Shown piece by piece: positions 13,464 to 64,000 of a stretch of 64,000 nucleotides of DNA; positions within the stretch are counted from its first letter, which is position 1; each line of letters begins with the position of its first letter. This DNA is from Globisporangium splendens (lineage: Eukaryota > Oomycota > Peronosporomycetes > Pythiales > Pythiaceae): contig VFIW01000006.1 of the NCBI GenBank assembly GCA_006386115.1, positions 1,651,060 to 1,715,059 on the forward strand, in the 5' to 3' direction. Both the position numbers and the translations under genes were made by a program. The notes under the pieces are model-generated. The model saw only the letters and a list, made by a program, of their open reading frames with translations, was not told the DNA's origin and searched no databases.

Positions 13464-14049
13464 CATATTCACACACAACACCACGCGCGTCGCCACCCCC
13501 GCGACCTCCCACAGCCTCCGACAACCCCCTCTGCGCACACATGTTCATACCATGCATGTCGCCCCTCCACGAACCGAACCGAACCGAACCGAACCGAACC
13601 GAACCGAACCGCACGCGCGCACAACACAACACAACACAACACGGATCGCGTCTCTTGACCCCGTGTCCTGTCCTTGCGCTCGTCCTCCAGCTTCGCTCCA
13701 GACATCGCCCACACTCCACAAAAGCGGCTACACGGTCCACTGAGCGACGTCCGGTACGAAACCTACTCGCTTCAACATACATACATGCTTGATTGCTTGA
13801 TTGCGTTATTGTGGAGGCGGCGTCGGAGAGGCAAGAGCACCCCGACGAACTCACAAAGCACCTGGGAAGCATCCTCGACACCTGCCAAAGCACACATCCA
13901 TCTGTCCATCGTGTGCGCTCGTTCAGCATCCAAAAGCATCCAAAAGCATTCAAAAGCATCCAAAACGAAAAGGATTGCTCCCTACCAGGATCGAACTGGT
14001 GACCTTCAGATTATGAGACTAACGCTCTACCGACTGAGCCAAAGGAGCA
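13464..14049. repeat. tRNA-Met array unit U1 (5'-truncated)
   Basis: Starts inside the unit at catattcacacacaac. It lacks the roughly 110-bp AC-rich beginning present in U2-U9 and otherwise matches them through a (GAACC) tract, a 10-11 bp AAAAGCATCC-type minisatellite and the tRNA at its right end. It marks the left border of the array. Confidence 0.9.
13976..14048 (-). tRNA. tRNA-Met(CAT), elongator, copy 1
   Basis: 73-nt cloverleaf: 7-bp acceptor GCTCCTT/AGGGAGC (one G-U), D-stem GCTC/GAGC, anticodon loop CTCATAA giving CAT, T-arm ACCAG-TTCGATC-CTGGT, discriminator A. No intron. Box A (TGGCTCAGTCGG) and box B (GGTCACCAGTTCGATCC region) are intact. Downstream on the minus strand come two TTTT runs (13968-13971 and 13962-13965), a Pol III terminator. 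tRL-1 is inserted 1 bp upstream of the 5' end. Confidence 0.97.
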
Positions 14050-14131
14050 CTTCTCAATTTGCCGGCTACCCCTCAAGTTGAATCCAAGACCTCTCAGTCA
14101 CCTCCCCCGCCTCTCAACCTCCGACTTTCCC

Positions 14132-16742
14132 ATGGAAAATCCAGCTCCTCCCTCCACCCACCAGCTGCCAGCTGTCGACACTGGCTCGAAATCTGGGTCC
14201 ATACCCTCTGTCGTGCCTCGTCCAACTGTCAGCCCATCCCCCCTCCAAAAATTTGGAAGGGTCCGAACCCACCCAAACGGGAAACCTGGTGGCGCCACCT
14301 GGGGTCAACCGCCATGTCTCTCCCACGACGAGCAACTTGAATGCAACAACTGGTGTCGCTGGCCAAGCCCCTGCTCCTCCAACCCACGCAACTGCTCCGC
14401 CTCCCGCTGATCCCGCTCCTGTCGCTGACCCCGCCGCCATGGTGGACGATCCGATGGAGTCTGGCGGGAATGCTCAAGTGACGACCCTCGATCTCTCTGG
14501 CGACGACCCGATGGATCCTGCTGTCGCTGTCGCTCCTGCGAACGTGGACACTCGACTGTCCATGGCTGAGCTTCTGCGGCAACAAGAACATCTTCGTCGA
14601 GACCGAGCTGTGATCGAAGCAACTCGCAGACGCGTCGAGACTCCGAAGCCTCTCGCTGTCGACATCGAAGCGATTGAGCGCCAGTATGCTGCTGGAGGTG
14701 ACTGGTCGCACATCGCGTCGCGAATGGAGCAAGCGCGTCCCTACCAGCTCCCGACCGCCAAGTACGACATGGTGATCGAGACTGGAAGAGCGCTCGCGAA
14801 GACTCCGCTCCAAAAGATCATGGCGTCGTTGGCCGGCACGAGCCACGGAAACGCGACACTCGATGAGCTGTACCAGCGCTTCGAGATCGGTCAGATCTCC
14901 AAGCTCCCCGGCGGCAACCTCCGAGTCAAGGTCAAGACGAAGGAAGCCTGTGTGCGCTTGGAACGCACCAAGGTGAACATCCTCGGTGGTACGTTCACGT
15001 TCAAGGAGTTCGACATCCTTGGCGACAGGTATTTCATCGACATTGTCAACGTCGATCCCGACGTGGACATTCGAGTGATCGTGCACCGACTGTTCCTCCT
15101 CGGGTGCCAGCCGGTGTACCACACCTTTCGCGAAGTAAACCTCGCGACGGGGATGACATCGGCGACCTGGCGAGTGTACTTCTTGTCCAGCTCGTGTCCA
15201 AGCGCGTTGGTCGTGAACGGGTCTGTGTGCGACCAGGTGTTGTTTGACAACAAGCTGCACCCGGCACATGGAAAGAATGCTCCGTTCCAGTCGGAGCGAC
15301 AGCCGTATGGGTATCGCTCGCACCATGGAATCGATCTCGGGTCTCCAGACAGTGTGTTCCCTCCCTCGAAGCCAGCTCCAGAGCAACCCCAGCAGCAACG
15401 ACAACAGCCGCTGAGAACCTACGCTCAAGCTGCGAATGCGATGCCGAAGCAAACCTCGCTGCAGAAGGCAGTCGAGGAAGGAAAGAGACGGGAAGCCCAG
15501 CTCCAGCAGAGAGCTCAGTATGGCAAGTCGTCAGCTGAAACAGCACTGGCCAAGCCGCGAAGCAACTCCGATGTGCTGTCGATCTCCACGTTCGACGACT
15601 CGCAAGGCAAGGTGACTCCACCAGGAAGTCCCAAACCGCCAATGAAGTCCCCGACGCTGCTCTTGACGAATGGAAACGACGGTTCCTCCACCGTGACAAA
15701 CAAGAAGAAGCGCTCGAGAAACGGAGTCGACTTCTCCAACATGCTGGTGAAACAGCAACCGCAGCCTCTGGATGGTGTTGCCACCACCAACTACTTCCAG
15801 GTGCTGCAGTCGATGGAAGTGTCCTTCGAAGTGAAGAATGTGGTTGCGGACAAGAAGTATGGTCCTCGGTACCAAGTGATCCCTGTCGATGTGAAGCGTC
15901 CCGAGGCGCTCAAGACATCGACCGAGTCGGCTTTCTTCGTCGAGAAGCACCACACGAAGATCAGGAAAGCGTCGAAGGCGTCTCCGATCTTGGAGGTGTC
16001 CGAGTCGATGCTGAACGACGAGAACACGGCGTTGCTCAACACCCTCCCGGATCGTCTTGTGCTCGCAGACACTCAGGTCGAGGGTGCGAGCAAACTCATC
16101 GACAACGCCACGAACCCCGACCACGTCATCAAGAAGGCAGTGGACTCGCCGTTGGCTTTCAACAGCGCTCTGTCGCTCAAGATGGCAGGAAGTGGACGCG
16201 AGATCGCCGAGATTGCCCAGCTGCATGTGATCAACCGCGTGTTGAGTGCGACCCAGCCGAGCGAAGACACGACGTTCAGTGCGAAGTGGAAGAAGCTGAT
16301 GAAGACGACGGTCCCGTCGAAGCGAGAAGAGTTGTTCAGAGCTTGCGCCAATTGGTGGACATCGTCGAACGAGATGAAGGAACTATCGCGAGCGGCGAAG
16401 GCTCTTGGGTTCTTCGAACTCATGCTGATGTCGATCGCGCCGACGATCTTCAGCAACGACCACTGGATCCACTACATCACTGGTCAGCCGGTCGAGTGGA
16501 TCCCCGCACACCACACGAGACTCCTCCACCCCAACACTCTCCTCATGCTCTTGCGGTCGGACCTTGGTGCGCACTGCTTGAGTCAATGTAACGAAGTGCA
16601 GTGGCAGGGGTACTTGTTCGACGACCTGGAAGAGCTTCGCAAGCTCGATGGGTACTACCCGGTCGACGAGTCGGTGTTGCAGCTCCGAGTTGTCGAGGGA
16701 GAGGTGGTGATGGTAGCGGGAGGCTTGGCCACTCGCTGCTAA
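14132..16742 (+). pseudogene. LINE ORF1 protein (tRL-1), one-base frameshift near N-terminus
   Basis: ATG at 14132 matches the starts in tRL-4 and tRL-5, but about 110 nt downstream (near 14240) one base too many compared with tRL-4 (ccctccaaaaattt versus ccttgaaaaattt) moves the frame. The rest, 14253-16742, is open. Product of about 870 aa: Pro/Ser-rich N-terminus; conserved VETPKPLAVDIEAIERQYAA block; a block resembling an RNA-binding fold (GGNLRVKVK ... CDQVLFDNKLHPAHGKNAP); basic KKKRSRNG segment; KHHTKIRKASK block; C-terminal Trp-rich region (QPVEWIPAHHTRLLHP). Family known to me only as a LINE ORF1-type nucleic-acid-binding protein; the RNA-binding role is inference. Confidence 0.8.
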
Positions 16743-16782
16743 ACCAACCTCGACTCAGCCCTCGTGGAGCAACATTAGTGCC

Positions 16783-19700
16783 TTGTCCGTCAACACTAAC
16801 GGCATCAAGAAGAACGGTCACTTATTTATCGACAGCGTGCTATCGAAACACTCGGTGGCATGCGTCCAGGAAACCAAGTTCAGCGACAAGCAACACCTCT
16901 TGACCTTCAAGTTTCACCTCGACTCAAGCTTCAAACACCAAGTCTTCGTGAACGACCCGAACTCCCAGTTGGATCGACCCACACGCGGGCGTAGTGGCGG
17001 TGTTCTCACTGTTCTTCGCTCTGACGTGCCGGGTTTCGAAACGGCTGCGGAACAACCAAGCCTCGCCGTCCCAGGTCGGTACCTCGTTGTGAAGCTGATG
17101 GTGAGCGACGCTCCCGTCTACATTCACAACGTGTACGCGCCAGTGGACCGACAAGAAAAGCAACAATTCTTCTCGAGTCTCTCGACCGAAGACTTTGAAG
17201 ATCAAGCGACACACCTTGTGTTGGGAGATCTGAACACGCCTTTGGATCCCAGACTCGACTCGTCGTCTCCAGATCTGCGCTACGACCCGGCGCGGTCGAG
17301 CTGCCTTGCGTGGCTTGCTTGTCTTGGCGTTGTGGATGCGTGGCGTGTCCACCATGACACGAGGCGAGTCTTCACTGGTCCCTTGCCTCGCAAGAACCGG
17401 TTGGACTATATCCTTCTCTCGGAGGCGTTCTACGAACGCTTCTACGATGACTCCAAGTACTTCGTTCCCCAGAACGCTGGTGACCACCTTGCTCACTGTG
17501 TGAGTTTCAAGACTGGCTCCCAGCTGCATGGACGCGGGTACTGGAAGTTTCCCCGTTACCTGCTGGAGTACCCAGTGGTTGTTTCCGCGGTCGAGAAGGA
17601 AGCGGAAGCAGTCCGAGATCAGCTCCGTGGCTCTATCAATCCTGGCCAAATCTGGGAGAGGTGGAAGACGAGAATCAAGACCCAGCTCCAAGACGTGCAG
17701 AAGAAACTGCGGATGCAAGACACTGCTGCGATCGAAGAGGCTCAAGCTGCGTTGGGCCAAGCGGCTGCTCGCTATCGAGATGCGTCGACCGAGAACAACC
17801 GCAGCGAGTTCGAAGAAGCCATGAAGATGTACAAGGAGACGGTCACGAGGACAAGTCAATACAACCAGGACAGTGCGTTTGACTTCCAAGCGGCCAACTC
17901 CGAAAAGTCCACCAAGCACTTCTTCCGTCCGCTGGACACGAGCTTGCGAAGGGTCTCGATCGAGGAGGTGATGACACCGAGTGGAAGTGTCTCAACAAAC
18001 CCTCACGAGATCTCTCTCCGCTTCCTGGAACACTGGGGGTCCGAGATGGGAGATCCCGATAGTCCAGCAGGAAGAGCTCCTCCACCCGACGATGGCATGC
18101 AACGCAAGCTTCTCGACTCGATCGTCCGCTTCGTCTCGGAGGTCGACCGTGCCATCCTGGATGCGCCGGTCACCGCTGCAGATATGGCAAGCGCGATCCG
18201 CCACATGAAGGCGACGTCGGCACCAGGCATGGACGGATTGTCGGCTGGTTTCTACCAGGTCGCTCCGGACGTGTTTGGCGAGTGCTTGAGCATCGTGTTC
18301 AACGATCGGCTTCGACGCGGCGTGCTGCTTCCATCTCAACGCAAGTCGGCAGTGGTGCTGCTGCACAAGAAGGGTTCGCGAGCGCAGCCTGGCAACTACC
18401 GACCCATCGCACTCGTGCAGGTCGATGTGAAGGTGCTGTCGAAGGCGCTGACGTACCGACTGCAACAAGTGATCCTCGACTTGATCCACCCCGACCAAAA
18501 GGGCTTCGTCAAGGGTCGCTCGATTCACCACCACGTTCGGTTCCTCGCGGATCTGCAAGACTTGGTGACCAGCCTGGATGAAGAAGCGTACGCGCTGTTC
18601 TTGGACTTCGAGAAGGCGTTCGACCGAGTCAACTGGGACTACATGTTCCGGCTGCTCGAGCGAATGGGGTTCGGCTCGGAGTTTACTCAGTGGATAAAGC
18701 TCCTGTATACTGACCCGCAAGCGCATCTTCTCATCAACCAGAACATCCAACCCGCGCTACATCCGACGCGAGGAGTGAAGCAAGGCGATCCGTTGTCCGC
18801 GCTGCTCTTCGTCTTGACCATCGAGCCGCTCGGCAACCTGCTGCGGTCCCACGAAGAGTATGGAGTGTGTCTCAACGCAGACCACACCGCCACGAGCACG
18901 TTCTTCGCGGACGACTCGACTCTCCTGGGCAGCTCGATACCGAACCTGCAGGCGCAGCTAGGACTCGTGGAAGAGTACTGCAGAGGCTCCGGCGCGAAGC
19001 TGAACCTGTCCAAGTCGATGCTGCTGGCGCTCAACCGGAACCAAGACTGCCCCACGCTGCCTGGCGTCCAAGTGCTCGGTCGCACGGAGACAGTGAAGTA
19101 CCTCGGCATCCCGTTTGGACAGTCGCCCGTTAACGACAACATCGTCGAGTTCCTCGACCAGCGCTTCTACGACGGCTTCAAGATGTGGTACCGACGTGCA
19201 AGGACACTTCGTGGTCGGCTCTTGGTAGCTCAAACGATGGTGCTCTCGCGTCTGTGGCACTACACACAGCACGTAGCGATTCCAGCGACAGTGGTGAAGC
19301 GGTGGCAGTCGATGCTGAATCGATTCGTGCTGAGTCGAAAGTATGATCGAGACGCGTCGCACATCCAGCTCATTCCACGCGAGTTCTTGTTCCATCGCAA
19401 GAGAGACGGCGGTCTGGGGATCCCAAGTCTAGACGCACAGCTCAAGAGACAGCGTCTTGCACTGCTGCTACAGTTCATGCGTGCGGCAAACAACGCAAGT
19501 GCTCGGAACTGGACGACAGCGAGCGTCGAGTTGCTGACGTCAGTGCTCCCTCGTTACGGAGAACGACAAGCCTTGGACTTCCTTGCGATCTCCCCGCTTC
19601 GACATGGCGACATGATCAAGTGGAGTCTGACCTCGGCGTGGTGGCGAGCGACTTGGGTCTGGTGGTACAAGATTCGCTGGGAAGTCACGTGGCGGGACCT

Positions 19701-20865
19701 TCCTTTGGATAAGCACGCTGCGTACGGTCTTCGACAGCCGATCTGGTTCCACTCGGACGCTAAACTGCACTACGAGCAGACTGCAAGGACGCACACCAGC
19801 TCAGCACATCGACGATGTATTGGGATGGTTCCCGAACCGCAACGCAGCTTTCGACTACACGTGTCGAGAGTCTTCGGCGTGCGTTCACTGGCTGACTTCA
19901 TGCGCGAAGGTTGTGCTTGGCCGACGCAGCAAGACTTCGTGGAGCGACACATCGACTTCACGCTCGTGTCTACGACTCCTGGACAACAGGTGAAGTGGCT
20001 GCGAGTGCTGTACAACGAAGCCACGCACATCGTCGAGCGTCTGAATGCACGAGATTTTGTGCTACAGACCCCGCACACTGAAAGACGAGCACTACCACAC
20101 CTGGGATGCAAGAGCGACGTCAAAGTGTGCTTGATTCCTGCGATTCCACGGTCAGCTATGCTTCGCGTGGTGTGGACACCAACACTGCCGACGAAACCAC
20201 ACCCGATGACTATACACTCGCGGAGTGTGCGTGAAGAGCAGATCAAGTCGTTTGTGAAATACAGCAAGCATCTGCGCAAGATCTTGCTTCCAGTCTTTGA
20301 AGACCTGCAGTTTCGTCTCGCGTTCCGTCTTCTGCCTGTGCGCGCTCGGTTCTGGTTCCTCGAAGCTGTACACCCACGCATCCAGTATTGCGTGCGTGAC
20401 GGATGCGACGCAATCGAGACGGAGGAACACTTGTTCTTCGAGTGCACTCTTGCAGCACAGCTGTGGAGTCACTTGAACCAACTGGTGTCGCCGCTCTTCC
20501 GTACGCGACCGACTTGGCATGACATCGCCTTGGCGACGAAGATGCACGTGCGTGATGAGTGGGGAGACTGTGAAGAAGTAGTCCATGACGCTTGGCACAC
20601 ACTCCGCGCTGTAACGCTTCATTTCATTTGGACAGATCGAAATCGGTGCCTGTTCGACGGAAGACAGCCCACACCGTCGCTCCCTGCGCTCCAAGTGGTC
20701 TTCACGACATTTGCGGCGCACATCTGGTTCTTCGAAAGACGGTTGTACGAGAGCGAAGACAAGCTAGCCTTGGCCACGGTTGTGCGCGCGATGAAGTCTC
20801 AGCCGGCTTTCGGCAGGTTTACCGACCTCCACCCTGGTATCACCAGTGTCCGCCAAACTGTCTAA
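16783..20865 (+). CDS. LINE ORF2: APE endonuclease and reverse transcriptase (tRL-1)
   Basis: 1360 codons, intact. APE-type endonuclease at residues 1-235 (VNTNGIKKNG, CVQETKF, YAPVD, LGDLNTPLD, RLDYILLS, GDHLAH). RT at about 500-790 (NYRPIALVQVDVKVLSKALTY, FLDFEKAFDRVNWDYM, GVKQGDPLSALLF, active site FFADDS near 706, YLGIPF). C-terminal zinc-binding region CVRDGCDAIETEEHLFFEC near 1205-1223, then DRNRCLFDGRQP. It nicks the tRNA target and primes reverse transcription there. There is no ATG near the start: the first codon here is TTG, and the frame is open back to 16717, overlapping the end of ORF1 in the +1 frame. Belongs to the L1/Tx1-like APE group by domain order. Confidence 0.93.
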   Translation: MSVNTNGIKKNGHLFIDSVLSKHSVACVQETKFSDKQHLLTFKFHLDSSFKHQVFVNDPNSQLDRPTRGRSGGVLTVLRSDVPGFETAAEQPSLAVPGRYLVVKLMVSDAPVYIHNVYAPVDRQEKQQFFSSLSTEDFEDQATHLVLGDLNTPLDPRLDSSSPDLRYDPARSSCLAWLACLGVVDAWRVHHDTRRVFTGPLPRKNRLDYILLSEAFYERFYDDSKYFVPQNAGDHLAHCVSFKTGSQLHGRGYWKFPRYLLEYPVVVSAVEKEAEAVRDQLRGSINPGQIWERWKTRIKTQLQDVQKKLRMQDTAAIEEAQAALGQAAARYRDASTENNRSEFEEAMKMYKETVTRTSQYNQDSAFDFQAANSEKSTKHFFRPLDTSLRRVSIEEVMTPSGSVSTNPHEISLRFLEHWGSEMGDPDSPAGRAPPPDDGMQRKLLDSIVRFVSEVDRAILDAPVTAADMASAIRHMKATSAPGMDGLSAGFYQVAPDVFGECLSIVFNDRLRRGVLLPSQRKSAVVLLHKKGSRAQPGNYRPIALVQVDVKVLSKALTYRLQQVILDLIHPDQKGFVKGRSIHHHVRFLADLQDLVTSLDEEAYALFLDFEKAFDRVNWDYMFRLLERMGFGSEFTQWIKLLYTDPQAHLLINQNIQPALHPTRGVKQGDPLSALLFVLTIEPLGNLLRSHEEYGVCLNADHTATSTFFADDSTLLGSSIPNLQAQLGLVEEYCRGSGAKLNLSKSMLLALNRNQDCPTLPGVQVLGRTETVKYLGIPFGQSPVNDNIVEFLDQRFYDGFKMWYRRARTLRGRLLVAQTMVLSRLWHYTQHVAIPATVVKRWQSMLNRFVLSRKYDRDASHIQLIPREFLFHRKRDGGLGIPSLDAQLKRQRLALLLQFMRAANNASARNWTTASVELLTSVLPRYGERQALDFLAISPLRHGDMIKWSLTSAWWRATWVWWYKIRWEVTWRDLPLDKHAAYGLRQPIWFHSDAKLHYEQTARTHTSSAHRRCIGMVPEPQRSFRLHVSRVFGVRSLADFMREGCAWPTQQDFVERHIDFTLVSTTPGQQVKWLRVLYNEATHIVERLNARDFVLQTPHTERRALPHLGCKSDVKVCLIPAIPRSAMLRVVWTPTLPTKPHPMTIHSRSVREEQIKSFVKYSKHLRKILLPVFEDLQFRLAFRLLPVRARFWFLEAVHPRIQYCVRDGCDAIETEEHLFFECTLAAQLWSHLNQLVSPLFRTRPTWHDIALATKMHVRDEWGDCEEVVHDAWHTLRAVTLHFIWTDRNRCLFDGRQPTPSLPALQVVFTTFAAHIWFFERRLYESEDKLALATVVRAMKSQPAFGRFTDLHPGITSVRQTV

Positions 20866-21019
20866 CCGAATGACCCAAAATTTCGAACTGTCGAATAGCA
20901 TGGCATGCTATTTGGAAGGGTTTTTCTCCCGATGCTGTCCGCCACGCGTTCGACAAGCTCATTTTCAAATTTTCCGGCTCCAGCTCAAGCGACTCAAGCG
21001 ACGACCCCAGCAACTGAAG
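20866..21019 (+). other. ORF2-ORF3 spacer of tRL-1
   Basis: Short link. An in-frame ATG at 20870, 4 nt after the ORF2 stop, would add 50 residues to ORF3, but the matching codon in tRL-3 is ATA. The second half (gctcattttcaaattttcc and what follows) is conserved with tRL-3 at the DNA level and is open in frame with ORF3. Confidence 0.6.
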
Positions 21020-22321
21020 ATGGCTCCAGAACAAGTTCCAGCTCTCCTCCCAACTGAATCTCTACTCGCCGGCTCGAAGGCGGGCTCTCCTCTGCGGACT
21101 GTGTTGTCTCCGGCTGCACCCGAAAGGGAGACGGGGGGCATGAGCCCTGAGGTGTGCCCAACTGAAAGCCAGGCTGAGGAAGGTGACGGAATTGAGGCGG
21201 AGTCTGGCAACTGCGAATCAGCGTCCATGGACACGGGCAGCGCGAACGACACTGAAAACCCTGCATCGGCGGATCTGTCAGTGCTTCTACCAGAGAGCCA
21301 AGAAGCTGATGCGGCGACGTCCGACGGCGACAACGTGAAAGATCGTGGCAGTGAAGGCAACAAAAGCGATGATGATGGCGACAGCGACGACAATGACAGC
21401 GACGGCATGGAGTCAACTGCCCAGCCGAATCCGACCGCCATTCAAGCATCCGCGGCGCCTGCAGTGGAGAACCCGCGTACAGTGGACACTGTACGCCGGT
21501 ACACCTTACGGAAGCGGACTGCAGAGCAACTTGAAGCGATGCGTCCAGTCAAGCGTACCCGGCGATCAGTAATGACGGAGGAGACGGGTGAAATTGACTG
21601 CATCGACAACCGAAGGACCGTGGCGACTGGGCTCGAGTATCGCGTGACATGGGTCGACGACTCGGACCCGATTTGGCTACCGCGAGACCAGTTGATCGAG
21701 GATGGCAATGCGAATCTCGTCGAGACGCTCGACGCATACCTACTCCGGTACCCGAACCGTGAGCTGACGTACCAAGCATACATCAGCAGAAACGCGAGAG
21801 CCTTCAGTGCGGTCGCCGACGGGGAGGACAATGCGTGCTTGCCTCACGCTGTCCAGATGGCACTCGAGCTCCTCGGCCACCAGCAGGAGAGCGCACGACT
21901 CCCGGAGATTTGGACGGAGTACCTACAGAACGCGGTCGACGCCAAGGTTCCGCTCTACGAAGGTTTTCACAAGCTCGGCGAGATTGTGAGGTACTGCTCC
22001 AACGCGGTCCCAAGGTGCGGTGTGGAGCTCAACATCAAGACTCTCCGCAAGAACCTCTATGATGGGGAAGGTGCCGGTCCTATGGCGATTGTGCGCCGTG
22101 TACTTCCTGAGGACAAGGGAGATCGTGTGCTCAAGCCAGGCGTGTACCTTGTCGGGGGGTACAAACGCAACATGCGGGCTCACTGCTTCGCAATGGAAGT
22201 CACTACGGACGAAGACATCATCGTACGCGAGAACGGGATTGACTCAGGCATCGGCGACCAGACGTGGCTTCGCATGATCAAGTTCATCCGCAGGATCAAG
22301 GTGCAGCATAACGAAGACTGA
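21020..22321 (+). CDS. LINE ORF3: chromodomain-like plus cysteine-peptidase-like protein (tRL-1)
   Basis: 433 aa from ATG 21020, chosen because tRL-3 has the matching ATG (40642). N-terminal half is disordered and very acidic (Asp/Ser/Glu runs at residues 90-140). Residues about 190-240 resemble a chromodomain (LEYRVTWVDDSDPIWLPRDQ). The C-terminal part has a papain/OTU-like pattern: EDNACLPHAVQMALELL with candidate nucleophile Cys273, and MRAHCFAMEV with candidate His388, 115 residues later, followed by an acidic/Asn position. Such proteins cut peptide or isopeptide (ubiquitin-like) bonds; here activity is inferred only. It lies 154 nt after ORF2. The 3' UTR contains the inverted repeat GGGTACAATGTACCC (22372-22386). 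tRL-2 and tRL-5 lack it. Confidence 0.75.
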   Translation: MAPEQVPALLPTESLLAGSKAGSPLRTVLSPAAPERETGGMSPEVCPTESQAEEGDGIEAESGNCESASMDTGSANDTENPASADLSVLLPESQEADAATSDGDNVKDRGSEGNKSDDDGDSDDNDSDGMESTAQPNPTAIQASAAPAVENPRTVDTVRRYTLRKRTAEQLEAMRPVKRTRRSVMTEETGEIDCIDNRRTVATGLEYRVTWVDDSDPIWLPRDQLIEDGNANLVETLDAYLLRYPNRELTYQAYISRNARAFSAVADGEDNACLPHAVQMALELLGHQQESARLPEIWTEYLQNAVDAKVPLYEGFHKLGEIVRYCSNAVPRCGVELNIKTLRKNLYDGEGAGPMAIVRRVLPEDKGDRVLKPGVYLVGGYKRNMRAHCFAMEVTTDEDIIVRENGIDSGIGDQTWLRMIKFIRRIKVQHNED

Positions 22322-22546
22322 TGAGTGACGCCACCTCTGTATACCTGGAGCCGTTGTGTCAGCGCCTCATGGGGTACAATGTACCCGGAGACTGGACAGA
22401 AGGAACTCCGCCATTTGGACTTAGTATACTCGCGGTGGATCTTTCTCACCCTTTCCAAGTTTGTTCGGCTAGGGTTATCTAACCCATATCGGCCATTCTA
22501 CGTTATGGAGGAGCGGTTAAGAACAGGCTGGCTCGAAATCAAATGT

Positions 22547-22618
22547 GGACCACGGCGGGATTTGAACCCGTGTCTCCTGAGTGGAGAGATGGACCTCAGA
22601 CAACTGAGCCAAAGTGAC
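22547..22618 (-). pseudogene. tRNA-like sequence in the 3' region of tRL-1
   Basis: On the minus strand it has box A TGGCTCAGTTG and box B GGTTCAAATCC at tRNA spacing, a T-arm and a 3' side CGTGGTC. The 5' acceptor side (GTCACTT) does not pair with it and the anticodon loop is irregular, so isotype is unclear. The right end (actgagccaaagtgac) resembles the LINE target duplication. Between ORF3 and the element 3' tail. Confidence 0.5.
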
Positions 22619-24150: not shown

Positions 24151-24167
24151 ACTGAGCCAAAGGAGCA

Positions 24168-55455: not shown

Positions 55456-55538
55456 CTTCTCAATTTGCCGGCTACCCCTCAAGTTGAATCCAAGAACCCC
55501 CTCCAAGCTCTCTAGCCCCCTCAGCCTCAAGTTTCCCC

Positions 55539-58157
55539 ATGGAAAGCCCAGCTACCCCAACCCTCCCCCAACCCTCGACTGTCGCACCAGCCTCGATTTC
55601 TGGGTTCACACCCAGTACCTCGACTGGTACCACTGTTGCCCCATCCCCGTCCGAAAATTTGGATCCCGCCGATCCTCGCCCAAGCGAAAACGTGCTTGCG
55701 CTCCTGGCGACGGATCCTGTTTCTGGCGACCATCCTCCTGTGACCGACCCAGCCGCCGGCGCTTCCACTGATTCGGAAGAAATAGTGGACGAGCCGATGG
55801 ATCCTGCGGTGAATGCAAGAGGGTCGAACGACGACGGCTCTGGCGATGTCCCGATGTTGCCTCCGCCTGCGAACTCGACTGGTGCCGACAGCCATGCCGG
55901 CAATTCGGTGCCGCCGCCTCCTGCATCCTCGGCTCCTGTTACGGACACGCGCTTGAGCATGGCCGACATCCTTCGCCTGCAAGAAGACATCTGCCGCGAC
56001 CGAGCCGTCGTTGACGCTTCTCGTCGCCGCGTGGAAACTCCGAAGCCCCTCGCTGTCGACATCGAGGCCATTGAACGCCAGTATGCTGCTGGTGGCGACT
56101 GGTCCAACATTGCGTCACGATTGGAGCAAGCGCGTCCTTACCAGCTTCCGAGAGCCAAGTATGATATGGTGATCGAGACTGGTAGGGCCCTCGCGAAGAC
56201 TCCAGTGCAAAAGATCTTGGCGTCGCTTGCGAGTTCCGGTCACGGCAACGCAGCGCTCGAAGAGCTTTACAAGCGATTCGAGATCGGTCAGATCTCCAAG
56301 CTTCCTGGTGGCAACTTGCGCGTCAAGGTCAAGTCGAAGGATGCCTGCGTGCGCTTGGAGCGCACCAAGGTGAACATCCTTGGAGGTGTCTTCACCTTCA
56401 AGGAGTTCGACATCCTCGGCGACAAGTACTACCTCGACATCTCGAACGTCGACTCGGACACGAACACAGACCTCATCCTTGAACGTCTGTTCATTCTCGG
56501 ATGCAAGCCTGTGTACGACACCTTCCGCGAAGTGAACCTCGCAACGGGTGTAACGTCAGCGACGTGGCGTGTCTACTTCTTGTCAAGCTCGTGTCCAAGT
56601 GCGCTGATCATCAACAGCGGTGTCTGCGATCAAGTGATCTTCGACAACAAGCTTCACCCTGCCCACGGCAAAAATGCGCCGTTCCGCTCGGAGCGTCTGC
56701 CTTTCGGCTATCGCTCTACACAGGCTCTTGAGCTTGGAGTGCCAGGTGGCGTGTTTCCGTTCCCTGGCTCGTTGTCTGAGCCAGCCCTCAGAAGTCAGAA
56801 GCCAAACCAGCACGGTTCTGCGAAGTCGTACGCCCAAGCCGCAGCAGCTACTCTGAAGCAACCTTCGCCGCCGAGTGCGACCAAGGGACAAGTGAATGGA
56901 GATTCTCAGCCCCAGCGAGGAGCCCAGCATGGCCAGATTTCTGGTCTAATTGTGCCGAGAAAACCTGGCAGTACTGCCTCGGGTTTATCCGTGGGTACCT
57001 TCAACGGATCAACGGGGAAGATCACACCGCCTGCCAGCCCTCGAGTTGGTCCGCAGAAGCCTCTTCTCTTGACCAACGGCGACAGTGATGGGTTCCAACC
57101 CGTGACCAAGAAGAGCAACAAGAAGCGATCGAGGAACGGCGCCGACTTCGCCAACATGGTTGCCAAGCAACAGCCGCAGCCTCTTGACGGAATCGCGACG
57201 TCCAACTACTTCGACGTACTCCAATCGGTGGAGGTGGCTTTCGAAGCGAAGAAAGTGACCGCGGACAAGAAGTACGGCATTCGATACCAAGTTCTGCCGA
57301 CTGAAGTCAAGCGACCAGAGGCGTTGAAGGAGTCCAAGGAATCGGCTTTCTTCATCGAGAAGCACCACACGAAAGTGAGGAAGTCGCCGAAAGCTTCTCA
57401 CATCGTGGAAGTGGCCGAGTCGATGGCGAACGATGAGAACACTGCTCTTCTCAGCGTTCTCCCAGACCGATTGACTCACGCCGACACGAAGGTTGACGCT
57501 GCGTGCAAGATCGTTGCGAACGCCACCAACGCTGATCATGTGACCAAACACGCTGTCGAGAACCCGCTCGCGTTCAACAGTGCTCTGTCGCTCAAGATGG
57601 CAGGGACTGGACACGAGATGCAGGAGCTCGCTCAGCTTCACATGATCAACCGCGTCTTGAGTGCTTCCGACCCAAGTGAAGACACGACATTCAGTACGAA
57701 GTGGAAGAAGTTTATGAAAACCAAGGTTCCGTCGACGCGAGGGGATCTGTTCCACACCGCTGCAAAGTGGTGGACAACGTCGGAGCCAGTCCGAGAACTG
57801 TCGCGAGCGACGAAGGCACTGAGTCTCTTTGAACTCATGCTGATGTCCATCGCCCCGACAATCTTCGCGAATGACCACTGGATCCAGTACCTGACTGGGA
57901 TGCCGGTGCCGTGGATCCCTGCACACCACACCCGTCTGCTGCATCCCAACACGCTGCTGATGCTGCTGCGCTCAGAGCTTGGAGCGTTGTGCATGAAGCA
58001 ATGGGCCGAAGTGCAGTGGCAAGGACGCATTCTTGAGGACCTGGAAGCTCTTCGCGACCTCGAAGACTACTACCCAGATGACGCGTCGGTCTTGAAGCTC
58101 CAGGTGGTCGATGGAAGCGTGGTGATGGCAGCGGGCAGCCTCGCTGTCAGTTGCTAA
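55539..58157 (+). CDS. LINE ORF1 protein (tRL-5)
   Basis: 872 aa, intact, ATG 55539 (ccccATGG). N-terminal 150 residues Pro/Ser/Thr-rich. Then VETPKPLAVDIEAIERQYAA, GGNLRVKVKSKDACVRLERT, CDQVIFDNKLHPAHGKNAP, KKSNKKRSRNGADFANMV, KHHTKVRKSPK and PVPWIPAHHTRLLHP, ending AVSC and TAA. ORF2 follows in the +1 frame with no ATG. Confidence 0.9.
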   Translation: MESPATPTLPQPSTVAPASISGFTPSTSTGTTVAPSPSENLDPADPRPSENVLALLATDPVSGDHPPVTDPAAGASTDSEEIVDEPMDPAVNARGSNDDGSGDVPMLPPPANSTGADSHAGNSVPPPPASSAPVTDTRLSMADILRLQEDICRDRAVVDASRRRVETPKPLAVDIEAIERQYAAGGDWSNIASRLEQARPYQLPRAKYDMVIETGRALAKTPVQKILASLASSGHGNAALEELYKRFEIGQISKLPGGNLRVKVKSKDACVRLERTKVNILGGVFTFKEFDILGDKYYLDISNVDSDTNTDLILERLFILGCKPVYDTFREVNLATGVTSATWRVYFLSSSCPSALIINSGVCDQVIFDNKLHPAHGKNAPFRSERLPFGYRSTQALELGVPGGVFPFPGSLSEPALRSQKPNQHGSAKSYAQAAAATLKQPSPPSATKGQVNGDSQPQRGAQHGQISGLIVPRKPGSTASGLSVGTFNGSTGKITPPASPRVGPQKPLLLTNGDSDGFQPVTKKSNKKRSRNGADFANMVAKQQPQPLDGIATSNYFDVLQSVEVAFEAKKVTADKKYGIRYQVLPTEVKRPEALKESKESAFFIEKHHTKVRKSPKASHIVEVAESMANDENTALLSVLPDRLTHADTKVDAACKIVANATNADHVTKHAVENPLAFNSALSLKMAGTGHEMQELAQLHMINRVLSASDPSEDTTFSTKWKKFMKTKVPSTRGDLFHTAAKWWTTSEPVRELSRATKALSLFELMLMSIAPTIFANDHWIQYLTGMPVPWIPAHHTRLLHPNTLLMLLRSELGALCMKQWAEVQWQGRILEDLEALRDLEDYYPDDASVLKLQVVDGSVVMAAGSLAVSC

Positions 58158-58203
58158 ACCAACCTCGACTCAGCCCTCGTGGAGCAACATTAGTGTCCTA
58201 ACC

Positions 58204-61200
58204 GTGAACACTAATGGCATCAAAGACAACGGTCACTTATTTATCGACAACATGGTATCGAAGCACTCGATATCGTGTGTCCAGGAAACCAAGTTCAGCG
58301 ACAAGCAACACCTCTCGACCTTCAAGTTTCACCTCGACTCAAGCTTCAAGCACCAAGTCTTCGTGAACGATCCGAACTCCCAGTTGGATCGACCCACACG
58401 CGGACGTAGTGGCGGTGTTCTCACTGTTCTTCGCTCTGACGTGCCGGGTTTCGAAACGGCTGCGGAACAATCAAGCCTCGCCGTCCCAGGTCGGTACCTC
58501 GTTGTGAAGCTGATGGTGAGCGACGCTCCCGTCTACATTCACAACGTGTACGCTCCAGTGGACCGACAGGAAAAGCAACAATTCTTCTCGAGTCTCTCGA
58601 CCGAAGGCTTTGAAGATCAAGCGACACACCTTGTGTTGGGGGATCTGAATACGCCTTTGGATCCCAGACTCGACTCCTCATCTCCAGATCTACGCTACGA
58701 CCCCGGTCGGTCCAGCTGTCTCGAGTGGTTGGCGAAGCTGGGTGTTGTCGATGCGTGGCGGATCCACTACGACACCAAGCGAGTCTTCACCGGTCCCCTT
58801 CCGCGGAAGAACCGACTCGACTACATCTTGCTGTCGGAGGACTTCTACACACGCTTCTATGACGACTCCAAGTACTTCCTGCCGAAGCATGCTGGCGACC
58901 ACCTCGCTCACAGTGTGAGCTTCCGGTCTGGTTCGCAGCTCCACGGTCGGGGATACTGGAAGTTCCCTCGCTACCTGCTGGAGTATCCAGTGGTGGTGTC
59001 TGCGATCGAGAAAGAAGCTGAACTGGTTCGAGATGAGCTGCGCACCTCGACGAACCCAGGTAAAATCTGGGAACAGTGGAAGGCGAGCATCAAGACCCAA
59101 CTCCAAGACGTGCAGAAGAAGCTTCGGCAACAAGACACGCAGGCTGTCGAAGAGGCTCGGATCGCGCTCGATCACGCTGCTGCTCGGTATCGCGTCGCTT
59201 CCAGTGACTCGAACCGAGAGCATTTCGACGAAGCCATGAGGAACTACAAGGAGACGGTCACGCGGACAAGTCAGTACAACCAGGACAGTGCGTTTGACTT
59301 CCAAGCGGCCAACTCTGAAAAGTCGACCAAGCACTTCTTCCGTCCGCTGGACACGAGCTTGAGAAGGGTCTCGATCGAGGGGGTGGTGACACCGAGTGGC
59401 AGTGTCTCATCGAATCCTCAAGAGATATCGCTTCGCTTCCTGGAACACTGGGGGTCCGAGATGGGAGATCCCGACAATCCAGCAGGGAGAGCTCCTCCAC
59501 CCGACGAAACCATGCAACGCAAGCTTCTCGACTCCATCGTCCGGTTCGCATCGGAAACGGATCGAGACATCCTGAATGCACCAGTCACATCTCACGATCT
59601 GGCGGATGCGATTCGACACATGAAGGCGACGTCGGCTCCTGGCATGGACGGCTTGACTGCTGGTTTCTACCAGGTCGCTCCGGACGTCTTCGGCGAGTGT
59701 CTGAGCATCGTGTTCAATGATCGACTCCAACGAGGAGTGCTTTTGCCATCTCAGCGCAAGTCTGCCGTCGTGCTGCTGCACAAGAAGGGTTCGCGAGCAC
59801 AACCAGGCAACTACCGACCTATCGCACTTGTGCAGGTCGATGTGAAGGTGTTGTCGAAGGCGCTGACGTATCGACTTCAGCAAGTCATCCTCGACTTGAT
59901 CCACCCCGACCAAAAGGGCTTCGTCAAAGGTCGCTCGATTCATCACCACGTTCGGTTCCTCGCAGATCTCCAAGATCTGGTGACTAGCCTGGGCGAAGAA
60001 GCGTACGCGCTGTTCTTGGACTTCGAGAAGGCGTTCGACCGAGTGAACTGGGACTACATGTTCCGGGTGCTCGAGCGAATGGGGTTCGGCTCGGAGTTTG
60101 CTCAGTGGATCAAGCTCCTGTACACCGAGCCGCAAGCGCATCTTCTCATCAACCAGAACATCCAGCCTGCGCTGCATCCGACGAGAGGCGTGAAGCAGGG
60201 CGACCCGTTGTCTGCGCTGCTATTTATCTTGACCATCGAGCCGCTAGGCAACCTGCTGCGGTCCCACGAAGAGTTCGGAGTGTGTCTCAACGCAGACCAC
60301 ACCGCCACGAGCACGTTCTTCGCGGACGACTCGACTCTTCTCGGCAGCTCGATTGCAAACCTGCAGGCGCAGCTCGGGATCGTGGAAGAGTACTGCAGAG
60401 GCTCCGGCGCGAAGCTCAACCTGTCCAAGTCGATGCTGCTGGCGCTGAACCGGAACCAAGACTGCCCGCTGCTCCCCGGAGTGCATGTGCTCGGTCGCAC
60501 GGAGACGGTGAAGTACCTCGGCATCCCGTTCAGCCAGTCACCCGTCGGTGACAACATCGTCGAGTTCCTCGAGCAGCGCTTCTACGACGGCTTCAAGGCT
60601 TGGTACAGACGCGCGAGAACGCTTCGTGGCAGGCTCTTGGTAGCTCAAACGATGGTGCTCTCCCGTCTATGGCACTACACACAACATGTGTCGATCCCCC
60701 CGGCAGTCGTGAGGAGGTGGCAGTCGATGCTGAATCGGTTCGTGCTGAGTCGGAAGCACGACCGCGACGCATCGCACATCCAGCTCATCCCTCGCGAGTT
60801 CCTGTATCAACGACGGAGTGACGGTGGACTGCAGATCCCAAGCCTGGAAGCACACCTCAAGCGGCAACGTCTTCAGCTTGTGCTGCAGTTTATGCGAGCT
60901 GTGACTGCAGATGGTGTGCTGAACTGGACGACAGCGAGCACAGAGCTGCTCAAGCTCGTCCTTCCACGCACAGGTGGCTGCAACGCGCTCGACTTCCTCA
61001 CGATCTCTCCGCTCCGACATGGCGACATGATCCAGTGGAAACTGACTTCAGCGTGGTGGCGAGCGACGTGGAAATCGTGGTACACGATTCGCTGGGAGAT
61101 CACTTGGCACGACCTTCCTTCGGACGAGCGCGCTTGGTACGGTCTTCAACAGCCGATTTGGTTCCACTCGGACGCAGCGCTTCACTTCGAGCAAGCCGCG

Positions 61201-62277
61201 CGGACTCACACCAGCTCAGCGCACCGTCGGTGCATTGGGATGGTGTCTGAACCACAGCGCAGCTTTCGGTTGCACGTGTCAAGAGTCTTCAGTGTGCGGT
61301 CACTCGCTGACTTCATGCTCGAAGGTTGTGCTTGGCCGTCGCAGCAAGAGTTCGTCCAGCGCCATCTCGACTTCACGCTCGTGTCTACGACACCTGGTCA
61401 ACAGGTGAAGTGGCTGCGAGTGCTGTACAACGAGGCAACGCAGATCGTCGAGCGTCTGGGCGCGGTGCAGCTTGTTCTACAGCCCCCTGGTGGCGTGAGA
61501 CGACTGCTGCCGCATCTCGGTTGCAAGAGTGGGGTGAAGGCGTGCTTGGTCCCAGCGATCCCAAGGTCAGCGCTTCTCCGCGTGGTGTGGACGCCAGCAA
61601 TGCCGACAAAGCCGCACCCGATGACGATACACTCCCAGCGAGTGGGCGACGAGCAGATCAAAGCGTACGTCAAGCACAGCAAGCATCTGCGCAAGATCCT
61701 ACTCCCCGTCTTCGAAGACCTGCAGTTCCGACTGGCGTTCCGTCTTCTGCCGGTGCGCTCGCGGTTCTGGTTTCTTGAAGCGTCGACTCCTGGCATCCAA
61801 CGCTGTGTTCGAGACGGATGCGACGCAATCGAGACGGAGCAGCACTTGTTCTTCGAGTGTATGCTGGCAGCGCAGCTGTGGGAGCACATGCGGAGACTGA
61901 TGGCTCCGCTTCTCCGATCCGAGTTGACGTGGGCGATGGTGGTGACAGCGAGGAAACCAGCGGTGCGAGACGAGTGGAAGGAGTGTGAGGACATTGTCTA
62001 CGATGTGTGGCACACGCTCCGCGCTGTGACGCTCCACTTCCTCTGGTCCGATCGCAATCGGTGCTTGTTCGACGGAAGACAGCCGACACCAGCGACCCCC
62101 GCGCTCTCTGTGATCTTCTCGACGTTCTGTGCGCATGCTCGGTTCTTCCAGCGGCGCCTGTACAAGCAAGAAGACCAGCAAGCGTTACACAAAGTGGTGA
62201 GCGCGTTGAAGACAAATGTGGCGTTCGGTAACTTCGTCGGCACGCATACGACGTTACTCCATGTGCGCACCTTGTGA
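58204..62277 (+). CDS. LINE ORF2: APE endonuclease and reverse transcriptase (tRL-5)
   Basis: 1357 codons counted from GTG 58204, intact. Endonuclease: VNTNGIKDNG, CVQETKF, YAPVD, LGDLNTPLD, RLDYILLS, GDHLAH. RT: KVLSKALTYRLQQV, FLDFEKAFDRVNWDYM, GVKQGDPLSALLF, FFADDS, YLGIPF. C-terminus: CVRDGCDAIETEQHLFFEC, DRNRCLFDGRQP. The conserved in-frame codons just upstream (SWSNISVLTVNTNG) suggest that translation enters from before 58204. The first 500 nt are nearly identical to tRL-1, later parts to tRL-4, so the copy is mosaic. Confidence 0.95.
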   Translation: MNTNGIKDNGHLFIDNMVSKHSISCVQETKFSDKQHLSTFKFHLDSSFKHQVFVNDPNSQLDRPTRGRSGGVLTVLRSDVPGFETAAEQSSLAVPGRYLVVKLMVSDAPVYIHNVYAPVDRQEKQQFFSSLSTEGFEDQATHLVLGDLNTPLDPRLDSSSPDLRYDPGRSSCLEWLAKLGVVDAWRIHYDTKRVFTGPLPRKNRLDYILLSEDFYTRFYDDSKYFLPKHAGDHLAHSVSFRSGSQLHGRGYWKFPRYLLEYPVVVSAIEKEAELVRDELRTSTNPGKIWEQWKASIKTQLQDVQKKLRQQDTQAVEEARIALDHAAARYRVASSDSNREHFDEAMRNYKETVTRTSQYNQDSAFDFQAANSEKSTKHFFRPLDTSLRRVSIEGVVTPSGSVSSNPQEISLRFLEHWGSEMGDPDNPAGRAPPPDETMQRKLLDSIVRFASETDRDILNAPVTSHDLADAIRHMKATSAPGMDGLTAGFYQVAPDVFGECLSIVFNDRLQRGVLLPSQRKSAVVLLHKKGSRAQPGNYRPIALVQVDVKVLSKALTYRLQQVILDLIHPDQKGFVKGRSIHHHVRFLADLQDLVTSLGEEAYALFLDFEKAFDRVNWDYMFRVLERMGFGSEFAQWIKLLYTEPQAHLLINQNIQPALHPTRGVKQGDPLSALLFILTIEPLGNLLRSHEEFGVCLNADHTATSTFFADDSTLLGSSIANLQAQLGIVEEYCRGSGAKLNLSKSMLLALNRNQDCPLLPGVHVLGRTETVKYLGIPFSQSPVGDNIVEFLEQRFYDGFKAWYRRARTLRGRLLVAQTMVLSRLWHYTQHVSIPPAVVRRWQSMLNRFVLSRKHDRDASHIQLIPREFLYQRRSDGGLQIPSLEAHLKRQRLQLVLQFMRAVTADGVLNWTTASTELLKLVLPRTGGCNALDFLTISPLRHGDMIQWKLTSAWWRATWKSWYTIRWEITWHDLPSDERAWYGLQQPIWFHSDAALHFEQAARTHTSSAHRRCIGMVSEPQRSFRLHVSRVFSVRSLADFMLEGCAWPSQQEFVQRHLDFTLVSTTPGQQVKWLRVLYNEATQIVERLGAVQLVLQPPGGVRRLLPHLGCKSGVKACLVPAIPRSALLRVVWTPAMPTKPHPMTIHSQRVGDEQIKAYVKHSKHLRKILLPVFEDLQFRLAFRLLPVRSRFWFLEASTPGIQRCVRDGCDAIETEQHLFFECMLAAQLWEHMRRLMAPLLRSELTWAMVVTARKPAVRDEWKECEDIVYDVWHTLRAVTLHFLWSDRNRCLFDGRQPTPATPALSVIFSTFCAHARFFQRRLYKQEDQQALHKVVSALKTNVAFGNFVGTHTTLLHVRTL

Positions 62278-62858
62278 TCTCCTCCACTTGATTGACTAGC
62301 CCTGCACACTATCACCACATATTTTGCGCGCAAGAAAACAACACAACACATGCGTTGGTCAAAGCAGTCCCAGCACTTGCACCAAACGCACACAGCAAAC
62401 ATTACCTTGCGACGATGGCGCTCAGCAGCACCACTTCACGTCCACGAGTGCCTGGCCAGCCCCAGCGACCGCTGAACAGGACGACGCCTCGACTTCCACC
62501 GCTCCACGCGCTCAAGCCTCTCCAGTTGGTCTTTTGCCCCTAGACACCCTTTCAGGGCTCATGCAGTGACAATATAGCCCCAACCAAATTGGCCAAGCAC
62601 GCTTCGCGACTGCAGTCGGGATCCGACCCGCTCTTACAGCCCCTGGAGCCGTCCCTGCAGAACTGGACTTGAAGACGACAATACTATACATGTATACCGG
62701 ACTCAAACTGTATACCAGTACACACTTCCACATGGACATTTGTTACAAAAAAACAAAACAAAATGTATACTAGAGTAGTATAGTAAGTGTATACCTCTAT
62801 TTTGCTAGGTAGATTGAGTAGTCACTCTGTCTAATTCTAGTAATATAGACAACTTTCA
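62278..62858 (+). other. 3' region of tRL-5
   Basis: 581 bp after ORF2 without ORF3 or a convincing tRNA-like sequence. About 500 bp is unlike the other LINE 3' regions; only the final 55 bp are the family tail. No coding sign. Confidence 0.6.
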
Positions 62859-62875
62859 ACTGAGCCAAAGGAGCA

Positions 62876-63127
62876 CCCGGTGGCGTGGGTTAGTCGGATA
62901 AGCTTCTGGTCCTTACGGTGTGTGTTGCGGGTTCGAGCCCCACACCGGACACTTTCGTAATCGAACCAAACTTGGAGAACGGTCGGCTCCAAGCGAAATA
63001 TTACCGACCCCAGCCTCTGCGCACGACTTTCAGAAATAAATAACCCTTCGGTAGAATGCAGTGTATTGTCTTAGCCATAGCCGAGAAGGTATAAGGTTGT
63101 GTCAACGGTAATATACAGCCACTTTCA
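62876..63127 (+). mobile_element. tRNA-derived SINE at the same target
   Basis: 252 bp between duplications 62859-62875 and 63128-63144. The first 75 bp form a tRNA-like head on the + strand: acceptor-like cccggtg/caccgga, box A-like tggcgtgggttagtcgg, box B ggttcgagccc. Anticodon not clear. An unrelated body follows, ending cagccactttc, the same CTTTC end as the LINEs. It has internal Pol III promoter elements and no ORF. Confidence 0.75.
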
Positions 63128-63144
63128 ACTGAGCCAAAGGAGCA

Positions 63145-63812
63145 ATATACTCGCCCTACCCCACACGCTCACAACACATTCAAAACAACACACACAACAC
63201 ACGCGCTCCACACGCCACACCTCGCACACAACACACAACATCACACCATATTCACACACAACACCACGCGCGTCGCCACCTCCGCGACCTCCCACAGCCT
63301 CCGACAACCCCCTCTGCGCACACATGTTCATACCATGCATGTCGCCCCTCCACGAACCGAACCGAACCGAACCGAACCGCACGCGCGCACAACACAACAC
63401 AACACGGATCGCGTCTCTTGACCCCGTGTCCTGTCCTTGCGCTCGTCCTCCAGCTTCGCTCCAGACATCGCCCACACTCCACAAAAGCGGCTACACGGTC
63501 CACTGAGCGACGTCCGGTACGAAACCTACTCGCTTCAACATACATACATGCTTGATTGCTTGATTGCGTTATTGTGGAGGCGGCGTCGGAGAGGCAAGAG
63601 CACCCCGACGAACTCACAAAGCACCTGGGAAGCATCCTCGACACCTGCCAAAGCACACATCCATCTGTCCATCGTGTGCGCTCGTTCAGCATCCAAAAGC
63701 ATCCAAAAGCATTCAAAAGCATCCAAAACGAAAAGGATTGCTCCCTACCAGGATCGAACTGGTGACCTTCAGATTATGAGACTAACGCTCTACCGACTGA
63801 GCCAAAGGAGCA
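63145..63812. repeat. tRNA-Met array unit U9
   Basis: 668 bp, matches U7; joined directly to U10 (second empty site, 63812/63813). Confidence 0.95.
63739..63811 (-). tRNA. tRNA-Met(CAT), copy 9
   Basis: Identical to copy 1, same terminator. Confidence 0.97.
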
Positions 63813-64000
63813 ATATACTCGCTCTACCCCACACGCTCACAACACATTCAAAACCACACACACAACACACGCGCTACACACGCCACACCTCGCACACAAC
63901 ACACAACATCACACCATATTCACACACAACACCACGCGCGTCGCCACCTCCGCGACCTCCCACAGCCTCCGACAACCCCCTCTGCGCACACATGTCCATA
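63813..64000. repeat. tRNA-Met array unit U10 (cut by window end)
   Basis: First 188 bp of another unit with a few substitutions (ctcgctctacc, aaccacacac). The array therefore continues to the right. Confidence 0.93.

Follow-up and report, generated by a model that had tools for sequence, protein, structure and literature searches.

Several mobile elements are known to insert at transfer RNA (tRNA) genes. The closest described system is NLTR-A of Dictyostelium purpureum, a retrotransposon without long terminal repeats (non-LTR retrotransposon) that lies very near the tRNA 5′ end (PMC5006619, PMC5911963). Here we analyse a 64,000-nucleotide stretch of the genome of the plant-pathogenic oomycete Globisporangium splendens (contig VFIW01000006.1; hereafter the window), in which long interspersed nuclear elements (LINEs), shorter elements and a short interspersed nuclear element (SINE) occur at an array of tRNA-Met genes. 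Across the assembly, these inserts belong to an L1-type LINE family that very probably enters tRNA genes base-exactly, by a nick at A14 of the tRNA and a 14-bp stagger. That LINEs can target tRNA genes is already known; the base-exact insertion at +1 across 14 anticodons is the new part. Among the matches listed from the open-licence literature on tRNA-targeting LINEs and oomycetes, none reports this family.

NLTR-A inserts 2–6 bp upstream of the tRNA (PMC5006619), whereas the G. splendens family inserts at +1; NLTR-A also has an RNase H after its reverse transcriptase (RT), for which the one G. splendens second open reading frame (ORF2) scanned gave no Pfam match. TRE5 and TRE3 of Dictyostelium likewise bring an L1-type apurinic/apyrimidinic endonuclease (AP endonuclease, APE) and an RT to tRNA genes. 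TRE5 lies upstream and in the opposite orientation to the tRNA, as does the G. splendens family, but at about 40–54 bp rather than at +1, and TRE3 lies 40–150 bp downstream; both end in oligo(A), in contrast to ...TTTCAAC here (PMC5911963). The first-pass annotation of the window had named TRE5 as its precedent, rightly in that upstream targeting of tRNA genes is known, although NLTR-A stands closer (PMC5006619). Ty3 and other LTR elements also insert just upstream of tRNA genes, within a few bases, by means of an integrase at the RNA polymerase III (Pol III) start site and not by target-primed reverse transcription (PMC5911963). Among oomycete elements, Utopia is a target-specific LINE within small-RNA gene arrays, but its target is the U2 small nuclear RNA (snRNA) gene, a fragment of which, from nucleotide 39, follows the element, and it encodes a restriction-like endonuclease and an RNase H, unlike the AP endonuclease of the G. 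splendens family (PMC4640811). The planarian non-LTR retrotransposons LIN15_SM and LIN25_SM are reported to be specific for tRNA-Arg and tRNA-Glu genes (PMC4640811). They belong to the R5/LIN lineage near NeSL and keep to one isotype each, unlike the G. splendens family. That lineage carries a restriction-like endonuclease. Dada elements, which reportedly target tRNA and snRNA genes, are DNA transposons, unlike the LINEs described here.

Occupied and empty sites in a tRNA-Met array

Large tandem tRNA arrays are known from Phytophthora infestans (PMC9584435). In the window, ARAGORN places nine tRNA-Met genes (U1–U9), all on the minus strand, and Rfam agrees, scoring eight of them at 64 bits each and a chimeric gene at 45343–45415 at 48.3 bits; the first-pass count of eight intact genes and one chimaera thus stands. 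At seven of the nine, a plus-strand element directly adjoins the tRNA 5′ end. The junctions at U7 and U9 (54759/54760 and 63812/63813) are empty, and U7 and U8, spaced 696 bp apart, are the only neighbouring pair with no insert between them. Stacks of two or three inserts lie behind U4, U5 and U8, following inserts that end at 33532, 42537, 44035 and 62860; both the stacking and the empty junctions, already reported in the first pass, can be read directly in the window. The 17-mer ACTGAGCCAAAGGAGCA occurs 18 times (shuffle mean, 0), and the element 5′ end CTTCTCAATTTGC nine times (once with a mismatch), seven directly behind a tRNA and two behind another insert.

Insertion at tRNA genes across the genome

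We searched the G. splendens assembly (53,310,241 bases in 195 contigs), published as a hybrid Illumina/PacBio assembly of 53.3 Mb in 195 scaffolds larger than 10 kb (PMC7163027). A search with CTTCTCAATTTGCYSGCTAYCCC, allowing two mismatches or fewer, identified 91 family 5′ ends (none with the reversed pattern as a control), and the 5′ flank was examined for all 91. Seventy-two adjoin a tRNA 5′ end, a further 14 are stacked behind an insert at a tRNA and five are elsewhere or ambiguous, so that most copies do not lie away from tRNA genes: 86 of the 91 are at one or behind an insert there. ARAGORN calls a tRNA 0–6 nucleotides from the junction in 67 cases and at 19 nucleotides in one more. 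It missed five further tRNA sites: C35:84330 and C35:85845 (Rfam, 37.1 and 51.2 bits), two sites on C115 (52 bits for the one scanned, the second having an identical flank) and C153:39881, which has no Rfam hit and was assigned by its sequence only. Fourteen flanks consist of the 3′ end of another insert plus a repeat, which is of tRNA type in 13 and not at C182; C111:1854 sits behind a SINE at a tRNA-Lys. The off-tRNA or ambiguous ends are at C164 (19 nucleotides from a tRNA-Leu), C46, C151 and C182 (two, including C182:148635), and no tRNA was found at the C46 and C151 insertion sites. Rfam, run on 20 loci including the off-tRNA ones, matched only tRNA families, 5S and U6 genes not having been searched for genome-wide.

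The tRNAs that ARAGORN places 0–6 nucleotides from a junction have 14 anticodons: those of Met, Ala (AGC, CGC), Phe, Ile, Thr (TGT, AGT, CGT), Asn, Tyr, Lys, Leu (TAA), Ser (GCT) and Arg (ACG). One site, C153:13933, is Phe by its ARAGORN label and Tyr by its 14-mer. The target is therefore tRNA genes in general. The first pass was right to place it at tRNA 5′ ends and too narrow in tying it to tRNA-Met; targeting specific to Met is rejected by the 14 anticodons. Among nuclear tRNA genes with the D-arm GCTCARTNGGTAGAGC, to which this count is limited, 35 of 82 have an insert at the 5′ end, and three additional matches are on C48, apparently an organelle contig. An Rfam tRNA census of the genome, which scored 63 of 1,890 candidates, was not used for counts.

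The first-pass annotation had proposed CTTCTCAATTTGC as the census probe. It is not specific: with up to one mismatch it has 440 matches (control, 50), and 30 loci examined comprised 18 unrelated LTR-like sequences, nine family members and three others, so it was rejected as a sole probe. The unrelated repeat starts with CTTCTCAATTTGCACG, often occurs in pairs about 7.2 kb apart and is probably an LTR element (L010, L011, L013–L023, L029, L030, L032–L034); it has 13 bases in common with the 5′ end of the tRNA-targeting LINE.

Insertion at +1 with a 14-bp duplication

At 71 of the 91 5′ junctions, the complement of nucleotides 1–14 of a tRNA type is followed by A and the element, and an A precedes the element at all 91. 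An exact 14-mer is absent from nine junctions: four with close variants, C164, C46, C151 and the two at C182. At the other side, a LINE tail pattern matched 97 places; 78 of them, with two mismatches or fewer, were used, and the 19 with three were set aside (control, 13). These 3′ ends read ...GACAAC(C)TTTCAAC or near variants, and in 64 of the 78 a 14-mer from one of the listed tRNA types comes next. When every 5′ end was matched to its nearest 3′ end, 58 pairs resulted, 45 of which have the same repeat on both sides, over 14 nucleotides (13 at the three non-tRNA sites).

Isotypes other than Met fix the boundaries. On the element strand, the base after the 3′ repeat is T in 6/6 Ile, G in 4/4 Tyr, G in 3/4 Thr (TGT), T in 3/4 Thr (AGT/CGT) and G or T in 13/17 Phe cases. 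Because this base is not A at most of these ends, the A at the 5′ junction belongs to the element. All ten 3′ ends with an Ala repeat have AAC and then TGAGCTACATCCCC (AAC-TGAGC), whereas all 12 Ala 5′ flanks read ATT-TGAGC; for nine of those ten 3′ ends, the paired 5′ flank is likewise Ala. The AAC is therefore element-derived, the duplication comprises nucleotides 1–14 and a first nick after A14 fits best. The element is thus best read as beginning with A and ending with AAC, with a 14-bp duplication and an insert that starts at tRNA +1. The 17-mer of the window is then best read as the 14-bp duplication plus AC of the element 3′ end and A of the element 5′ end. R1 likewise makes a 14-bp duplication.

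Four of the 78 LINE 3′ ends have the tail GACACTTTAAC and precede the TCGG of Leu/Ser-type repeats, whereas 70 precede TGA. The LINEs with this tail form a subfamily (C16:63575, C129:1224833, C129:1240559 and C145:131170; L155–L158), all four before TCGG, those at C16 and C145 by eye. This difference led us to consider whether the RNA tail guides the element to box A by base pairing; the idea was not adopted, because off-tRNA sites share only T to TGA with the tail.

Proposed mechanism and alternative explanations

The junctions suggest how insertion may proceed. The AP endonuclease would make its nick in the tRNA-sense strand next to box A, immediately 3′ of the conserved A14. From the 3′ end of the nicked strand, reverse transcription would copy an RNA whose encoded part ends in ...TTTCAAC, and the second strand would be cut 14 bp away, at position +1. 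Because the acceptor stem and two linker bases have a fixed length, a cut at this distance from A14 should fall at +1, and the mature 5′ end need not be read. The outcome would be an insert head to head with the tRNA, with its initial ACTTCTC placed at +1 and a copy of tRNA nucleotides 1–14 after its far end. As the tRNA stays whole, newer inserts would push older ones outward in a stack. The short elements and the SINE, with the same tail letters, may use the same LINE machinery. The first-pass idea of the tRNA array as a renewable safe haven seems fair on this evidence. A LINE that spares the sequence of the gene it enters and reuses the site bears on the survival of selfish DNA in compact genomes, and the choice of target, the place of the nick and the second cut can here be read from sequence in a natural system of 14 anticodons and one APE-type LINE family.

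How A14 is found admits two answers. Tethering to the Pol III machinery might choose the target, leaving the endonuclease to need only a short motif (TCA) and box A unread as sequence; we put the chances of this at about even. In its favour, one LINE lies 19 nucleotides upstream of a tRNA-Leu at TGATCC (TCA on the nicked strand) and not at A14, and the targets vary around nucleotide 14: GCTCA-GT, GCTCA-AA (Ala), CCGA-GT (Leu) and, for the 5′ side only, CCCA-AT (Arg). In Dictyostelium, the ORF1 protein of TRE5-A is described as being contacted by TFIIIB proteins (PMC5911963). However, there is a single near-miss, Rfam found only tRNA among the 20 loci scanned, and A14 and the arrangement of box A are common to all tRNA targets hit exactly, so that a reading of sequence would serve equally well. 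The mix of isotypes makes sequence reading and Pol III tethering directly testable against each other.

Several observations weigh against base-exact insertion by a nick at A14 and a fixed 14-bp stagger. The evidence for insertion comes from one species, G. splendens, and the order of the two strand cuts is one that we infer. Eleven of the 91 5′ junctions have extra nucleotides between the 14-mer and the element. Away from tRNA genes, duplications are 13–14 bp at C164, C46 and C151, versus 17–18 bp for a SINE on C25, so the stagger is not perfectly fixed. Among the 78 LINE 3′ ends, 14 have no exact listed tRNA 14-mer. They include C164, C46 and C151 and, by eye, the Leu/Ser-type C16 and C145 and a one-base Thr variant at C119:645307; the remaining eight are C182 and seven that are ambiguous or away from tRNA genes. 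In the stretches examined for those seven, Rfam found no tRNA except an Ala gene just past C114:29855. Finally, 13 of the 58 pairs are discordant, five with variants of one isotype and eight with outright different repeats (three in the window); recombination, composite RNAs and errors of assembly are the candidate causes.

The first-pass annotation had proposed another geometry, with a 17-bp duplication, a first nick after T16 and an insert 1 bp upstream of the tRNA. This agrees with the Met sites of the window, which alone cannot reveal the 14-bp geometry because Met has the same letters there. It fails at the Ala sites, where AAC at 10/10 3′ ends against ATT at 12/12 5′ flanks fits A14 better, and at the Ile, Tyr and most Thr and Phe sites, where the bases after the 3′ repeat, set against the invariant A of the 91 5′ junctions, place the insert at +1. 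A nick after T16 would be tenable only if the primer were subsequently trimmed back, and we regard this geometry as improbable. The rest of that account holds well: LINEs, short elements and SINE share one insertion base, the tRNA is left whole and the duplication comes from the tRNA 5′ end.

Over their best aligned 5–6 kb (12 full LINEs compared), the five window LINEs are only 72.5–86.0% identical and are therefore separate insertions. Elsewhere, copies at Ile and Phe genes are 97.0% and 95.7% identical, and a copy near Leu is 95.8% identical to one at Asn; near-identical copies at Ile and Phe genes indicate that lineages move between isotypes. It is very improbable that the pattern stems from a small number of insertions that unequal crossing-over in the tRNA array then multiplied. 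Some units do look duplicated, such as the C115 pair with identical 150-base flanks, and crossing-over can add copies, but it leaves the spread unexplained: the divergence of the window LINEs and the 14 occupied anticodons indicate many separate events, and 45 of the 58 pairs have the same repeat on both sides. Misassembly of unrelated repeats, to which a hybrid Illumina/PacBio assembly (PMC7163027) and the eight outright discordant pairs might point, has a negligible chance of being right, given an identical junction at many isotypes and contigs, isotype-particular spacers and the 45 concordant pairs.

Proteins of the LINEs and their relatives

ORF2 of LINE 1 (1,382 codons) matches RVT_1 (2.7e-35) and Exo_endo_phos (8.1e-08) in Pfam, the only families found at E values up to 0.01 in this one ORF2 scanned, with no RNase H. 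Its best match in PDB is human L1 ORF2p (1.9e-56, residues 20–904), R2 being weaker. By its domains, its similarity to L1 ORF2p and the target-site duplications, the predicted machinery is that of an L1-type (APE-type) LINE. A poly(A) 3′ end is typical of L1; it is not matched here, the G. splendens 3′ ends being those given above.

A genome search with ORF2 scored 34 of 603 candidates and gave 35 matches. Twenty-seven of the 34 loci have no stop, one of them (C29) in two pieces, which leaves 26 uninterrupted over the matched part, and the copies are 77–95% identical to LINE 1 (C29 excepted). At 29 of the 34, a listed 5′ end lies 2.6–2.9 kb upstream. Among the best scored of 7,988 candidates, ORF2 has at least 83 protein relatives, many from G. 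splendens itself; the matches listed include Peronospora matthiolae (71% over 82% of the query) and Lagenidium giganteum (52% over 36%). Relatives with DNA context in other records comprise two distant loci in bacterial records and none in viral contigs.

ORF3 has at least 16 relatives, a number that counts those in the window; the relatives with a species name come from two oomycetes, Phytophthora cactorum and Plasmopara halstedii. Aligned ORF3-like frames occur in LINEs 1 (20795–22321) and 3 (40339–42021), and possibly in LINE 4. A reading of ORF3 as a chromodomain plus peptidase, made by eye from a middle part that resembles a chromodomain, was rejected, as Pfam gave nothing convincing (best E value, 0.055). 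Nor was a chromodomain upheld by structure: the model has a predicted local distance difference test score of 46.8, and the best Foldseek match, a chromodomain, has an E value of 1.3.

Short elements, the SINE and LINE-borne tRNA-like genes

The short elements have their first bases and tail in common with the LINEs. By sequence, the SINE shares with them only its last nine letters, ACTTTCAAC. It has eight genome matches, six near-complete and two 66-base pieces. Of the six, two adjoin a tRNA-Phe and one a tRNA-Lys; the window copy, at Met, and another copy at Phe are stacked behind other inserts, and the sixth is elsewhere with its own duplication. With five of six at tRNA genes, either directly or in a stack, the SINE shares the target of the LINE. 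Its tRNA-side junctions outside the window have extra nucleotides. A 3′ stem is predicted in 19 of 32 distinct LINE tails, and the idea that LINE, short element and SINE have it in common is suggestive only. By eye, the head of the SINE holds a putative box-B-like motif, GGTTCGAGCC; Rfam does not class the SINE as a tRNA.

A Gly (CCC)-like tRNA, antisense in LINE 3′ untranslated regions (UTRs), has 13 genomic matches: ten about 160–190 bp upstream of a listed LINE 3′ end, two, both at C115, behind LINE 3′ UTR sequence and one, at C157, unplaced. In the window, LINE 3 has a different tRNA-like gene (46.3 bits, Rfam); that of LINE 1 is degenerate, falls below the Rfam threshold and was recognized by eye; and none was called in LINEs 2, 4 and 5. 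Outside the window, antisense tRNA-like genes in LINE 3′ UTRs are present at L040 2499–2571, L041 7549–7621 and L042 7547–7619. The family might thus carry its own target, an antisense tRNA-like gene about 120–310 bp before the LINE 3′ end kept as a portable landing pad, in which case each LINE insertion would supply a new site for the next; we think this unlikely. At C115, a short element starts exactly at +1 of the LINE-borne tRNA. The far side is an Ala repeat plus spacer in one unit (519247) and a garbled form of it in the other (509687), and the expected junction was not found in the genome at two mismatches. The Ala-type far side makes this a rearranged event and not proof of a landing pad, and a claim of proof was rejected accordingly. 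The two units are likely one event because their 5′ flanks are identical.

Organization of the window

The genes U1–U9, called by ARAGORN and Rfam, lie on the minus strand and all inserts on the plus strand. U1 (13976–14048) is occupied by LINE 1 (14049–22731, 8,683 bp), whose frames, open from stop to stop, are ORF1 (14082–16742), ORF2 (16717–20865; AP endonuclease and RT) and ORF3 (20795–22321); the 3′ copy of the 14-bp duplication, the complement of tRNA nucleotides 1–14, follows at 22732–22745. U2 (23353–23425) is occupied by a 727-bp short element (23426–24152), with the first bases and tail of the LINEs, and U3 (24900–24972) by LINE 2 (24973–32118, 7,146 bp), with open frames of 1,002 and 1,384 codons.

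Behind U4 (32733–32805) is a stack of three: a tRNA-proximal short element of 727 bp (32806–33532), LINE 3 (33547–42537, 8,991 bp) and a third insert at 42553–42680. The frames of LINE 3 are interrupted, apart from the ORF3-like frame given above, and its tRNA-like gene lies antisense within the 3′ UTR (42226–42297, minus strand). The stacked pieces named in the first pass needed reassignment: 42553–42680 is a 5′-truncated short element, and the SINE is at 62876–63129. U5 (43305–43377) is occupied by a pair of short elements (43378–44035, 658 bp; 44050–44715, 666 bp). The repeat between them (44036–44049), earlier taken for Met-type, is the tRNA-Phe-type 14-mer TGAGCTATCGAGGC, with Met-type outside, and the pair looks like a composite that moved or recombined as one.

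U6 (45343–45415) is a chimeric tRNA with a Met body and Asn-type 5′ nucleotides, occupied by LINE 4 (45416–54076, 8,661 bp), in which ORF2 is split between frames and the flanking 14-mers differ (Asn 5′, Met 3′). The tRNA at C35:84330 has an Ile body and a Met-type 5′ end; chimeric tRNAs with the 5′ end of another isotype, each beside an insert, are U6 and L002 1445–1516. U7 (54686–54758) is empty. U8 (55382–55454) is occupied by LINE 5 (55455–62860, 7,406 bp; open frames of 889 and 1,383 codons), with the SINE and its ACTTTCAAC tail behind it, and U9 (63739–63811) is empty. Outside the array, a Ty3/gypsy element with several open frames lies on the minus strand at 2060–11677; the two frames scanned with Pfam hold gag, RT, RNase H, integrase and chromo domains.

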